A stretch of DNA of 28,518 nucleotides, from IMG/VR virus record IMGVR_UViG_3300031705_000034, positions 1-28,518 of that record; one strand, 5' to 3'. Position 1 is the stretch's first letter. Each line of letters opens with the position of its first letter. The notes under the pieces are model-generated. The model saw only the letters and a list, made by a program, of their open reading frames with translations. It made no database searches and was not told where the DNA came from. Of the stretch, positions 15,912 to 21,699 are shown piece by piece. The stretch comes from a virus. The position numbers were made by a program, and so were the translations under genes.

Positions 15912-15963
15912 CAAATATAAAAGAATTTTTTCAATTACCAAACTTTTTAAAAGAATTTTTTCA
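15912..15963 (-). promoter_or_regulatory. Early-type promoter with two copies of the shared spacer element
   Basis: On the minus strand TTTG (15939-15942) is followed after exactly 19 bases by TATATTTG (15912-15919), a full Bacteroidota promoter. The spacer contains TTGAAAAAATTCTTTTA, shared with the promoters at 22.6 and, less exactly, 18.9 kb. A second copy of the core (TGAAAAAATTCTTTT, 15949-15963) lies 30 bases upstream without its own -7 element, as expected of a tandem operator. Confidence 0.75.
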
Positions 15964-15979
15964 TTTATTTACGAAAACT

Positions 15980-16386: not shown

Positions 16387-16830
16387 TTAACGTCCGCACA
16401 ATTCGCAAACGTGTTTATCATCATCATCTGTTTCATCTTTTGGTTGTTCATCATCTAAAGGTAAATCAAAAACCGGTAAATCAACGCCCCATTCAATTAG
16501 TTGTTTTACATCCCATTCATTTGCTAAAATATCCCAATCCCATTCACCAAATCCGGAATTGTCTTTTATTATGAATTCCCTTTTTTGCGCTTCAGTCAAT
16601 CCGCTTTCAATATGAATTGGAATTTCAAACATCCCGGCCGATTTGCACGCTTTTAAGCGCATATTTCCGCCAAGTATTGTCATTGTTTCATCAACTACAA
16701 TTGGCCTAATATTCATCATCCAAGGTGATTTCTTAATTGACTGAACTAATAGTTTAAATTTTGGATCTTTAATAAAACGCGGATTGTTTGGCGTTTCTTT
16801 AATCGTTTTTAGATTTACAATTTTACGCAT
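16387..16830 (-). CDS. ParB-like nuclease-domain protein, orphan
   Basis: This 147-residue protein has the phage ParB/Srx fold signature: NLKTIKETPNNPRFIKD, then VQSIKKSPWMMNIRPIVV, GGNMRLKACKSAG at residues 54-66, then KREFIIKDNSGFGEWDWDILANEWD and LIEWGVDLP. Proteins of this kind are often fused to, or encoded beside, a DNA methyltransferase; none is present here. After an acidic linker (residues 125-139) the protein ends in HVCELCGR, a lone CxxC at the very C-terminus, either half of a zinc site completed by a partner or a remnant of a longer domain. A role in DNA modification or processing is possible but not shown. Confidence 0.8.
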   Translation of the reverse strand: MRKIVNLKTIKETPNNPRFIKDPKFKLLVQSIKKSPWMMNIRPIVVDETMTILGGNMRLKACKSAGMFEIPIHIESGLTEAQKREFIIKDNSGFGEWDWDILANEWDVKQLIEWGVDLPVFDLPLDDEQPKDETDDDDKHVCELCGR

Positions 16831-16985: not shown

Positions 16986-17225
16986 TTATACAGTCCAATA
17001 TTTCTTGTAAATATACAAATAAAGTTCCCAACACTTATTGCAAGCATCGGTGTTTGTGTAAAAGATAGGCGAACAATTTATTTTATCATTGTCGTTTATT
17101 TCAACTTTTAAACCTTTTTTAGTTGGTTTTACATAAACCTTTATATTATTTTTTAAACACCATTGCATCGCTTTGTAGTGGTGTTCTGTAACTTCTTTAA
17201 ATCTTTGAATCTTTTTTTTAGGCAT
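16986..17225 (-). CDS. Hypothetical protein downstream of the primase-helicase
   Basis: This 79-residue basic protein starts within the stop of the primase-helicase gene (TAATG overlap), so it is translationally coupled to it. It has VTEHHYKAMQWCLKNNIKVYVKPTKKG, a strand, and CNKCWELYLYIYKKYW. The CxxC with nearby aromatic residues is the only motif. No family is recognised. Coupling suggests a role in DNA replication, but this is inference only. Confidence 0.6.
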   Translation of the reverse strand: MPKKKIQRFKEVTEHHYKAMQWCLKNNIKVYVKPTKKGLKVEINDNDKINCSPIFYTNTDACNKCWELYLYIYKKYWTV

Positions 17226-18898
17226 TAAAATGGTACGTTATCGGTTATAACTTCAAATTTTTTATTCTGCAAACTAATATCTTTATAAATACCGCCGGAA
17301 TCAAAATCAGGTGCAATTTCAAATTCACCCAATTGGCCGTTTTCTTTACGCTTTACCTTTTCAATATACATTTTTACGATATCGGATTTGTATTGCGTTT
17401 TTTGGCCAATACATCTAAAAACTATCATTCCGTTATAAGCCTTGTTAAAGAAATCAGCAGATCCGGAAATATCATATAAAGTTGGTTTTTTATAGTTCCC
17501 ATTTTCCGATTCAATTTTTCGCGGGTGCGCCACTAAGAATAAATGCGTGTTTGTTTGTTGGCAAAATTGCGTAATTAGTGAAAGCGCTTTTCCGATATAT
17601 GAATGATCACGTTGGGCCGAATGGTCTAACATATTCCAGGGATCAATCACTACAACGTTAATTCCTTTTTGAAATACTAATTCACGAAATGCATTTAAAA
17701 TTCCTTCTAAAGATAAATTTTCTAAATCTATTTTAATCCAAAAGAAATGGTCTTCGATAAAATCTTTAGTATTATTTAAATCAGTATTATCACAATTTTT
17801 TTCATTTAATTTATTTGCAATTCTTTTAATATGGCCCTCATAAGGAAATGATTCAGGCGCAAACATAGCGCAACGCATACCGTAATTAACCGCCATATTG
17901 CAACAAATTTGGTCTACAACGTCCGATTTCCCGGAATTTGGTATTCCCGTTACAACTGTCCATTCACCTAATGCAAGTTTAAAATAAGAATCTGAATTTG
18001 GTAAACCTATTGAATAATTTTTAACGCCGTTCTCATTATAATTTAAAACATTCTGCCAAATATCATTGATATTTAAAACGCCCTCTAAAGGGAAGTTTTT
18101 AGAATCTTTTATAAAATCCCTTAATGCTTGCGCACCTTTATCAATTAAAACCTCGTTAGCATCCTTAAAATCGCCAAATTCAACATATTTACAACGGTAC
18201 GCGCCAAACCTTCGGGCCAATTCATTACGTAATTCCAAACCGGCTTCATCATTATCGGTACATAAAACAATTTGTTTTTTTTCTTTAAAGTATTCAAAAC
18301 AATTATCTAAATACTCTAAACGTGCATTTCCTTTTGATGCGCCATTTGGTACACTACAAACAGAATAAATTCCGCATTCGTGCAATGAAAGCGCGTCCAT
18401 TTCGCCTTCAACAATATAAACAGTGTCCATTTCTTTTATGTTATCCAATCCATAAAAAATAAGTTCAGCACCTGAAACCATTTTAAAATTCTTTTCTGCA
18501 TCCCTAAACTTAACGTTTACCAATTCTTTTTCCCGGTAATAATTAAAATTTACTGCGCGGCGTTCTTTACCAACTTGCGGGAAATATTCTTTTGATTCGC
18601 CGATTTTCCAATGAACCAAAGTTGATTCAGAGATTTTACGTGATTCAAACCAAGCAATTAATTCTTTGCTTAAACTAACATCAATTTTTCTTGGCTTAAT
18701 AAATTCGGGTTTCTTTTGGAATTTAGTTGTTCCACTCCAACCGCAGTTGTGGCAATTAAATAAACCTTGGTCAATATCTACCGATAAAGATTTATCACGT
18801 TTATTTTTTCGCGTGTCGCTACATTTTGGGCATTTTGTTTTTGTTTTACCGGCGTTTTTATTGCCGACATCAATATTAAAATCGTTGAATGTTTTCAT
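17225..18898 (-). CDS. Primase-helicase (T7 gp4/Twinkle-like)
   Basis: This 557-residue protein carries all three parts of a bifunctional primase-helicase. A zinc ribbon uses C23, C26, C49 and C52 (CPKC, then CHNC). A TOPRIM domain shows E165 in VEGEMDALSL, D215/D217 in LCTDNDEAG and KDANE at 245-249. A RecA-like helicase shows Walker A GIPNSGKSD at 318-326, FAPESFPYEGH, Walker B near 415-423 (VVVIDPWN), and H459-region LFLVAHPRK. It should prime and unwind at the replication fork. It is preceded by an early-type promoter (18919-18926) and coupled to the next small gene. Length is typical. Confidence 0.93.
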   Translation of the reverse strand: MKTFNDFNIDVGNKNAGKTKTKCPKCSDTRKNKRDKSLSVDIDQGLFNCHNCGWSGTTKFQKKPEFIKPRKIDVSLSKELIAWFESRKISESTLVHWKIGESKEYFPQVGKERRAVNFNYYREKELVNVKFRDAEKNFKMVSGAELIFYGLDNIKEMDTVYIVEGEMDALSLHECGIYSVCSVPNGASKGNARLEYLDNCFEYFKEKKQIVLCTDNDEAGLELRNELARRFGAYRCKYVEFGDFKDANEVLIDKGAQALRDFIKDSKNFPLEGVLNINDIWQNVLNYNENGVKNYSIGLPNSDSYFKLALGEWTVVTGIPNSGKSDVVDQICCNMAVNYGMRCAMFAPESFPYEGHIKRIANKLNEKNCDNTDLNNTKDFIEDHFFWIKIDLENLSLEGILNAFRELVFQKGINVVVIDPWNMLDHSAQRDHSYIGKALSLITQFCQQTNTHLFLVAHPRKIESENGNYKKPTLYDISGSADFFNKAYNGMIVFRCIGQKTQYKSDIVKMYIEKVKRKENGQLGEFEIAPDFDSGGIYKDISLQNKKFEVITDNVPF

Positions 18899-19448: not shown

Positions 19449-19604
19449 TTATTTGCTATTTGTATTCTCGTAATATATTTTTATATATTCTTGACATTCT
19501 TTTTTAGTGCCTTGAAATTGAACAATACTTTTTAATGAATCTATAACCTGAAATTCATTTTTGTATTTGTATAAACCTAATATTTGATATTTATTTATTT
19601 CCAT
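19449..19604 (-). CDS. 51-residue hypothetical protein
   Basis: The ORF starts at an ATG at 19604, within a 13-bp tandem duplication that repeats the same ATGGAAATAAATAA start context also used by the replication initiator gene. Its sequence (MEINKYQILGLYKYKNEF, then VIDSLKSIVQFQGTKKECQ) reads like a small alpha/beta protein. After its TAA the same frame stays open for another 38 codons, to 19332. No family is recognised. Confidence 0.5.
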   Translation of the reverse strand: MEINKYQILGLYKYKNEFQVIDSLKSIVQFQGTKKECQEYIKIYYENTNSK

Positions 19605-19619
19605 TATTTATTTCCATTA
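19592..19619. repeat. 13-bp tandem duplication of a start-codon context
   Basis: The minus strand carries AATAATGGAAATA twice in direct succession, giving ATG codons at 19617 and 19604. The first opens only an 8-codon frame; the second opens the 51-residue ORF. Confidence 0.7.
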
Positions 19620-19620
19620 T

Positions 19621-20553
19621 TTATTTATTTATAATTACATATTCTTTTAATTCATCAAATTCGTTTGTGTGCATTAATTGCTTAATATGAAATTCAAATA
19701 AGTTTCCGCCTTTTGTTTTTGCTCCCAATTCTTTGTTTCCGTCCGCAGCACTATTGTAAATAAAATATTCAATAATTCCCTTTACTTTTAAATAACCAAC
19801 CGGTTTTGATTTTGCCTTTTGGTTTAACATAAAACGATCAATGTATTTAATTCCGTTTTTGTCTAAATTTCTAAATTTCAAAATACTTAAAAAATTAGTT
19901 TGCCAAAATTCATCATTTCGAAGTGTTTTTGTAACTTCATAAACATCGTGCAAACTGTATTTATCAATTCTTTGAAGTTTATCCAAACAGTCCAGCCATT
20001 TGTTTTTTTGAGTTTCGCCTTTTGGTTTATACTGAATAGGAAATAATTCTACAAAATGCGGAAATGCCTTCAATGTTATTTCATTGTATAAAGGCGTTTT
20101 TAATTTTGTGGCACTTTGTACATTAGTATTTCTTTTATTAGTTATTACATTAGTGTTTATAGTATTACTTTGTTGCGGATTAACCGGGCCCGGTTTTACC
20201 GTCGCGGTTTTACCGTCGCGGTTTTTCCGGTTGCGGTGGTTTTTGGTTGCCTTGTTGGGTTTGTCATTCAAATAATAGTTGTATCCGGCAAATTTACCGC
20301 CATTTCGCATCTCTTTTCGCACCAAAAAACCTTCATCAATTAATTCCTTTATCCTTTTATTAATGGCATCTTTTCCGTCTTTAAAATGGCCGCAAATGAA
20401 CTGAACAGTCATTTCTGTTTTTGCCTCGTGTGAGAAAAGCCAACAATATAATCCGGTTGCACTTGCTGAAATATCTTTGTGCCTAAAAATATTATTGGGA
20501 ACAATTGTAAAAAAAGAGAATTTTTTCGGTTTGTAAATTTTATTTATTTCCAT
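19621..20553 (-). CDS. Replication initiator-like winged-helix protein with internal origin repeats
   Basis: This 310-residue protein has an N-terminal winged helix (VPNNIFRHKDISASATGLYCWL, then TVQFICGHFKDGKDAINKRIKELIDEGFLVRKE, then YNYYL) typical of phage replisome-organiser/RepA-like proteins. Residues 100-155 form a low-complexity polar linker. Residues 155-310 form a helical C-terminal domain (FVELFPIQYKPKGE, NKWLDCLDKLQRIDKYSLHDVY, FWQTNFLSILKFRNL). The linker DNA contains G+C-rich 14-bp iterons followed by an A+T-rich stretch, the same plan as the lambda O gene. It should bind the origin and help load the replicative helicase encoded downstream. The gene has its own promoter and a leader of about 90 bases with inverted repeats. 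Confidence 0.8.
   Translation of the reverse strand: MEINKIYKPKKFSFFTIVPNNIFRHKDISASATGLYCWLFSHEAKTEMTVQFICGHFKDGKDAINKRIKELIDEGFLVRKEMRNGGKFAGYNYYLNDKPNKATKNHRNRKNRDGKTATVKPGPVNPQQSNTINTNVITNKRNTNVQSATKLKTPLYNEITLKAFPHFVELFPIQYKPKGETQKNKWLDCLDKLQRIDKYSLHDVYEVTKTLRNDEFWQTNFLSILKFRNLDKNGIKYIDRFMLNQKAKSKPVGYLKVKGIIEYFIYNSAADGNKELGAKTKGGNLFEFHIKQLMHTNEFDELKEYVIINK
20116..20181. other. A+T-rich segment beside the iterons (candidate unwinding element)
   Basis: Coding residues around 126-150 of the initiator, this segment is strongly A+T-rich and repeats ACTAATGTA twice (minus strand). It lies directly beside the G+C-rich iterons, as the unwinding region does in lambda-type origins. Function is inferred from placement. 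Confidence 0.4.
20182..20240. other. Candidate replication origin: iteron array inside the initiator gene
   Basis: On the plus strand TTTTACCGTCGCGG occurs twice in exact tandem (20194-20207 and 20208-20221), followed by a degenerate copy (to 20236) and preceded by the perfect 14-bp palindrome AACCGGGCCCGGTT (20182-20195). Each exact copy contains the dyad ACCG...CGGT when read with its flank. The 14-bp period is out of frame with the codons, so the copies encode different residues; the repetition is therefore a property of the DNA rather than the protein. Confidence 0.6.
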
Positions 20554-20568
20554 ATTTTAAAAAGAATA

Positions 20569-20641
20569 ACCCTATCAAATCAGCGGTCGCGGGCGCATCA
20601 TCAATAGGGTATCTATTAATTTTTTATATTGTTACCGCGAC
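20569..20641 (-). promoter_or_regulatory. Structured 5' leader of the initiator gene with two competing inverted repeats
   Basis: In the transcript direction GTCGCGG (20641-20635) can pair with CCGCGAC (20592-20586), while ACCCTAT (20610-20604) can pair with ATAGGGT (20575-20569). The two stems interlock, so they form either a pseudoknot or alternatives. The CCGCGAC core is the same as in the iterons, so the initiator could also bind here and regulate its own gene. Confidence 0.45.
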
Positions 20642-20650
20642 ATAACAATG

Positions 20651-20683
20651 CAAATATAAATATTTTAACTATAAATTATAGTT
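20651..20683 (-). promoter_or_regulatory. Promoter of the initiator gene with a 17-bp palindromic operator candidate
   Basis: Minus-strand TATATTTG (20651-20658) is a perfect -7 element. In place of a -33 TTTG lies AACTATAAATTATAGTT (20667-20683), a perfect palindrome with 8-bp arms and one central base, which also spans the stop codon of the upstream 81-residue gene. This placement is ideal for repression or activation. Confidence 0.6.
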
Positions 20684-21315: not shown

Positions 21316-21699
21316 TTATAACTCTTTTTTTAATTTGTCAACTTCAACAAGTAAAAGATTCTTTGCAATTTTAAGAAATTTATACTTAATTAACACTTTT
21401 TTTTTCATTAAATCTTCAACACTTAATTCATTAAATACTATTTTACGCAACTTTTCGAATTCATTTTTAAAATGTAAATCGCAATTCAGCCAATTTTCAA
21501 AATTATTCATTGAATAGATAACCGAACTATGATCACGATTTACAATTTCACCAATTCGTGTTGTTGTGTGCCTTGTCTTTTTTCTTGCAAGCCAATAAAA
21601 TGCAGCTCGTGCCATTACTATTTCACGCCTTCTTGAATTTTGCGTAATATCAACATCAAAATGATTGTTAACCCTCTTTATTAAATTATTTAAAACCAT
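21316..21699 (-). CDS. DnaA domain IV-like DNA-binding protein
   Basis: This 127-residue protein contains RREIVMARAAFYWLARKKT, then TTTRIGEIVNRDHSSVIYSM (residues 24-63). This closely follows the DnaA C-terminal DNA-binding domain: the basic loop, the helix RxxAxYLxR, and the signature 'IG..fgRDHsTV'. The AAA+ ATPase of DnaA is absent, so it cannot be an initiator by itself. It may bind DnaA boxes in phage or host DNA, either to compete with host DnaA or to recruit factors. The C-terminal third (residues 80-127) is a charged helix. It lies between the exonuclease and VRR-NUC genes. Confidence 0.82.
   Translation of the reverse strand: MVLNNLIKRVNNHFDVDITQNSRRREIVMARAAFYWLARKKTRHTTTRIGEIVNRDHSSVIYSMNNFENWLNCDLHFKNEFEKLRKIVFNELSVEDLMKKKVLIKYKFLKIAKNLLLVEVDKLKKEL

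Follow-up and report, generated by a model that had tools for sequence, protein, structure and literature searches.

Where does an uncultured phage begin to copy its DNA, and can that starting site lie within the gene for the very protein that would bind it? The question is raised by a virus record that consists of a linear contig of 28.5 kb with ~32% GC, whose main genes lie on the minus strand; we call this whole stretch of 28,518 nucleotides the window. A first-pass annotation had proposed a lambda-O-like intragenic origin, with repeats and an A+T-rich segment inside the replication initiator gene. Our analysis supported this reading, in that relatives also carried linker repeats and the contigs scanned contained no rival array. 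From sequence comparison we infer initiator binding and origin activity at positions 20107–20237, which very probably constitute the replication origin of the phage inside its own initiator gene.

The initiator gene (19621–20553, minus strand) encodes 310 aa, with a winged helix at approximately residues 20–95, a disordered linker at residues 101–153 and a C-terminal domain at residues 155–310. The N-terminal winged helix was indicated by a match to HTH_36 above the cut-off, together with PHROG initiator profiles and an AlphaFold2 model. Several PHROG families were matched (replication initiation, DnaD-like helicase loader, and O-like); the matches to ‘replication initiation O-like’ (9.5e-8 to 5.8e-5) were weaker than those to the initiation and DnaD-like families, a comparison that applies at the level of profiles only. 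In the AlphaFold2 model, which was built on a 16-sequence alignment, linker residues 101–153 had pLDDT values below 50, both domains were mostly at 70–90, and pTM was 0.37. The fold matched phage HTH initiators in BFVD. Against the PDB, the top fold matches (primosome DnaB and RctB domain 1) were weak and not significant (best E = 0.015), and a search of the PDB by sequence gave HTH regulators and chance matches only.

The linker of the initiator gene contains four iterons, which are adenine-joined hyphenated dyads of the form ACCG-N3/4-CGGT at 14–15 bp spacing. On the coding strand their order is ACCGCAACCGGAAAA, ACCGCGACGGTAAA, ACCGCGACGGTAAA, ACCGGGCCCGGT, and each dyad is perfect or imperfect. 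Iteron 1 lies at 20223–20237, iteron 2 at 20209–20222, and iteron 3, an exact copy of iteron 2 in another reading frame, at 20195–20208; iteron 4 (20183–20194) is the core of a 14-bp palindrome at 20182–20195 (all minus strand). The first-pass annotation had reported two exact tandem 14-bp copies of TTTTACCGTCGCGG, which we found at 20194–20207 and 20208–20221, and a degenerate third copy, which is TTTTTCCGGTTGCGG at 20222–20236. It had also reported a perfect palindrome, AACCGGGCCCGGTT (20182–20195), as an element apart from the repeats. The palindrome is indeed perfect, but it is not separate: because the coding strand resolves into four units, it is the fourth iteron. The array falls within the predicted disordered linker of the AlphaFold2 model, between the winged helix and the C-terminal domain as had been claimed, and the central copies do encode different residues (NRDGK and TATVK). 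The candidate target of the initiator is the ACCGNNNCGGT array, which we term class A iterons.

Simulated dinucleotide-matched sequences and synonymous recoding both make it unlikely that the array arose by chance. A tandem-repeat scan (period 10–40, at least 14 matches) recovered just two exact repeats in the window, among them the array; sequences simulated with matching dinucleotide composition gave 0.02 on average. The repeat score of the window was 22, exceeding 200 of 200 synonymous recodings (mean 7.0, maximum 13). At 63% GC, the iteron stretch of 57 bp ranks 2nd among 28,461 stretches of this length, in a contig of 32% GC. The A+T-rich neighbor noted in the first pass is likewise present, as a 22% GC stretch that adjoins the 63% GC array.

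A TA-rich segment at 20107–20169 (minus strand), which is a candidate DNA unwinding element, contains more TA steps than synonymous recoding yields (z = 3.7). This excess was seen in 18 of 18 genes tested (z = 2.2–5.9), spanning every N-terminal class tested. The isoleucine codon ATA made up 119 of 129 inside the A+T segments versus 251 of 781 elsewhere, and the leucine codon CTA 26 of 33 inside versus 65 of 846 elsewhere. Because CTA is less A+T than TTA, codon choice favors TA steps, which melt easily, rather than A+T content per se. Many of the genes are closely related, so these codon counts are not independent, and the agreement class by class is the stronger point. An alternative reading of the segment as TAN trinucleotides (DnaA-trio-like) was rejected, as it is inseparable from codon structure.

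We compared 56 dereplicated initiator genes, whose sources were viral contigs, genome contigs, and the phi18:3 region. The class A linkers examined had four to five ACCG-N3/4-CGG dyads at 14–15 bp, and a few included one degenerate unit. Because the search pattern for units prescribes their first and late bases, agreement among units at those positions carries no independent weight. Spacing of 15 bp was commoner than 14 bp, and in most relatives it is in frame. The 14-bp out-of-frame period described in the first pass therefore holds for the lineage of the window but is not general. The dyads occupied frames 1,1,0,2 in the window, L002 and L004; frames 0,0,0,2 in L003 and L009–L019; frames 0,0,0,0 in L020–L027; and frames 2,2,2,2 in L066. 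That is, because the dyads are read in different frames across phages, they are encoded as NRDGK, KTATV or KPAPV, which are unrelated peptides. The first-pass annotation had proposed testing whether the repeat core is kept while the residues vary, and this it clearly is: the ACCG..CGG units occurred in all three frames among different phages.

It had also held that homologs lacking linker repeats would count against its reading; repeats were found in every N-terminal class, although that of L057 was weak and did not rise above synonymous recoding. They were mostly class-specific in sequence, with an A+T segment alongside wherever tested. The class C linker has a different dyad, TATTGAAGAAAACTTCAAT, at 22/24 bp spacing and in two reading frames. 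The N-terminal half of class C gave no BLAST match to class A apart from a handful of chance alignments, which were short or at 20% identity, whereas its C-terminal half was up to 99% identical to class A. The linker repeat of L029 is ACCACGTGTGGT, and 11-bp repeats occur in the linkers of L059 and the cultured phage phi18:3. Four 12-bp in-frame copies are readable in the L094 linker, but they were not above recoding in the 111-nt stretch scored. Repeat scores were above 200 of 200 recodings in L020, L038, L059, L068, phi18:3 and L115, as in the window, whereas the in-frame repeats of some class A and class C linkers were matched by recoding in several percent of trials. Of 12 related contigs, 7 contained the class A pattern, as a single array each; the others include other iteron classes.

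Two natural recombinant pairs were informative. In each, the winged helix, iterons, and A+T segment were replaced as one block between flanks that are 88–95% identical. Pair L024/L039 is ~94% identical on either side of the block that was exchanged (485 and 379 nt, leader included), with C-terminal domains that are 99% identical and N-termini and iterons that are unrelated. The flanks of pair L066/L068 are 88% and 91% identical, and again N-termini and iterons are unrelated. The swapping of iterons together with the winged helix strengthens the case that the initiator binds its own iterons, as the sequences suggest. The claim that selection acts on the DNA is now backed by the frame changes, the TA-step codons, the block swaps, and the class-specific linker repeats.

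The first-pass annotation could also have been contradicted by iterons elsewhere, but no competing array was found in the two contigs scanned, each of which may be incomplete: the window and a 33-kb contig from a 98% identical relative. The rest of the latter contig contained no dyad array. GC skew was one-signed across the window and the 33-kb relative, with no inflection; because the main genes all lie on one strand, skew has no power to locate an origin here. The window contains 2 DnaA boxes (TTWTNCACA) versus 6 expected, and none is near the array. The DnaA-box cluster that characterizes a DnaA-dependent (oriC-type) origin is therefore absent at this site.

We propose that initiator dimers would use the N-terminal winged helix to bind the four dyads, as suggested by dyad symmetry and co-swapping, and that the bound dimers may pack into an O-some-like complex, upon which the adjoining TA-rich DNA would melt. 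The conserved C-terminal domain would then recruit the phage’s own Toprim primase-helicase, encoded nearby (17225–18898, minus strand; identified by profile matches). In lambda, the C-terminal half of O binds the helicase loader P, which brings in the host's DnaB. No lambda P-like loader was found among the replication-region proteins searched, and in almost every locus of sufficient length a Toprim primase-helicase gene lay downstream of the initiator gene, whatever the N-terminal class; these two results make the constant C-terminal domain the likely helicase contact. The winged helix, iterons and A+T segment would together form a swappable specificity cassette, with the C-terminal domain and helicase held constant.

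Other roles for the array must be weighed against an origin. A DNA-binding protein whose cognate sites lie within its own gene could repress that gene, and iteron proteins of plasmids often autoregulate; the iterons might then be operators, with the origin elsewhere. We consider this unlikely, as the sites are >300 bp inside the gene and away from the promoter, a TA-rich segment with its own codon selection always adjoins them, and neither the window nor the relative’s 33-kb contig offers another array. Autorepressor and origin roles could, however, coexist.

The repeats might instead lack any function as DNA, being neutral products of slippage or a repetitive protein linker of the KTATV type. 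The 15-bp in-frame repeats of most relatives fit this account, as do the several relatives in which recoding attained the observed score in some trials. It is nonetheless largely refuted, and we regard it as highly improbable: the units are kept through frame changes that yield unrelated peptides, seven linkers (those of the window, L020, L038, L059, L068, phi18:3 and L115) beat every recoding, TA-step codons are chosen alongside, and the repeats co-swap with the winged helix. Least probable of all is that the array serves packaging, partition or recombination and is located in the initiator gene by coincidence. Repeat arrays can form such sites, and a ParB-N-like protein is encoded at 16387–16830 (profile match), but the array changes with the winged helix, whereas the flanking genes stay 88–95% identical in the recombinant pairs, and the large terminase gene is 5 kb from it. 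We thus retained the intragenic origin as the preferred reading.

Upstream of the initiator gene is a conserved 5′ leader (20569–20646, minus strand) that is not part of the origin itself. It comprises hairpin 1 (20631–20646) and hairpin 2 (20569–20610), whose 8-nt loops are complementary and have seven complementary bases in common. The element TATATTTG at 20651–20658 (minus strand) fits the flavobacterial −7 promoter box, for which the consensus is TAnnTTTG (PMC9723704); such a box preceded the leader in 20 of 22 cases. Leaders were found in the window, L002–L025, L066, L068, L096, L102 and L104; they stand before class A genes and one class C gene (L068). Across 22 sequences, 97% of cells pair, and 24 cells changed on both sides; shuffles gave 5.9 such cells and slid controls no more than 3. 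In the viral collection, 33 of 33 matches to a strict leader pattern lay before an initiator gene. Rfam gave no match to the leader, its folding energy was mildly unusual (z = −1.5 to −2.3), and an intrinsic-terminator scan, which takes loops of 3–8 bases only, detected none in it.

We considered whether the CCGCGAC sites in this leader (20586 and 20635) were extra initiator-binding sites, and rejected the idea. They lack the ACCGNNNCGG dyad; they show compensating pair changes instead (GTCGTGG/CCACGAC in L002, GTCGAGG/CCTCGAC in L021); and they also precede the class C initiator L068, whose iterons differ greatly. Indeed, L066 and L068 have the leader in common and different winged helices. 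Covariation makes the hairpin and loop structure of the leader well supported, and its function is perhaps, at a guess, the tuning of initiator output. We gave about an even chance to the fuller proposal that this is an undescribed cis-acting leader RNA with kissing loops that regulates the amount of initiator, in which the 7-mers would be parts of the RNA and not origin sites, and which would be partly independent of the cassette.

Profile searches identified the neighbors of the initiator as genes of replication and recombination, encoding the Toprim primase-helicase, a VRR-NUC nuclease, a protein that consists of the DnaA C-terminal DNA-binding domain, and an ERF annealing protein. The third of these (127 aa; 21316–21699, minus strand) matched Bac_DnaA_C (E = 1.5e-13) with no match to an ATPase domain. 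Many relatives keep this gene upstream of the initiator, and phi18:3 likewise has a DnaA-like gene annotated close to its initiator. DnaA boxes are scarce in the window. Besides the array, the window has one exact tandem repeat, an A+T repeat of 13 bp (19591–19626) where the small gene that follows the initiator starts; nearly three units are present, ATGGAAATAAATA on the minus strand, which resemble the first codons of the initiator itself. A TAAAAGAATTTTTTCA-type sequence occurs twice, 30 bp apart, between two genes at 15918–15967, and is found in L002 as well. In the 33-kb contig of the nearest relative (L143:5388–5432), 3.8 copies of AACACCAACAAC with a 12-bp period were the strongest tandem repeat in the rest of the contig, and these could encode an Asn/Thr-rich linker. 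In the genome collection, initiator relatives were found in four MAG contigs only, binned as Flavobacteriaceae (one), Woesearchaeota, Rhodobiaceae and Ignavibacteria. The host, on which these bins conflict, is taken to be a low-GC bacterium, probably a flavobacterium.

For this uncultured group, origin and initiator specificity are therefore indicated from sequence alone. A compact rule, that winged-helix initiators have repeats in their linker, could locate origins in other metagenomic phages, and the natural swaps and frame changes make co-evolution of initiator and origin inside one gene testable, with phi18:3, which grows on Cellulophaga baltica, as a cultured test case. The covarying leader also hints that phage replication is controlled by an RNA absent from Rfam. 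The literature searched, mostly as titles and abstracts and including few subscription journals, gave no account of an intragenic origin in these phages.

The closest models are known systems. In lambda, four hyphenated-dyad iterons joined by adenines lie mid gene O with an A+T-rich region on one side; O dimers bind the iterons, and the neighboring A+T-rich region is destabilized (PMC6022878; PMC7466680). The origin described here resembles that of lambda in its location within the initiator gene, its four dyad iterons and its A+T-rich side, and the initiators are similar in size (299 aa for lambda O, 310 aa here). In contrast, the lambda repeats are 18–20 bp versus a period of 14–15 bp, and lambda uses a P-type loader, whereas here a Toprim primase-helicase gene is nearby and no P-like gene was seen. 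The system would act in the manner of the lambda ori, but we do not class it as lambda O/P. Lambda, P22 (gene 18) and L (gene 18) have different iterons, each inside its own initiator gene (PMC8022706). The oriL of SPP1 has direct repeats and an A+T-rich unwinding element in gene 38, bound by gp38 (PMC6316719), and is alike in placing both inside the initiator gene; SPP1, however, has a second origin (oriR), a gp39 loader, and a gp40 DnaB-type helicase, whereas only a single array was seen here. The gp006 protein of Cellulophaga phage phi18:3, which is annotated as a DnaD-like helicase loader, has a related C-terminal domain (37% over 99 aa) and four 11-bp tandem repeats in its linker, but its N-terminal domain and iteron sequence are unrelated and its genome is 71 kb. 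The best reading is an origin like those of lambda O, P22 gp18, and SPP1 gp38, the principle of which is already known.
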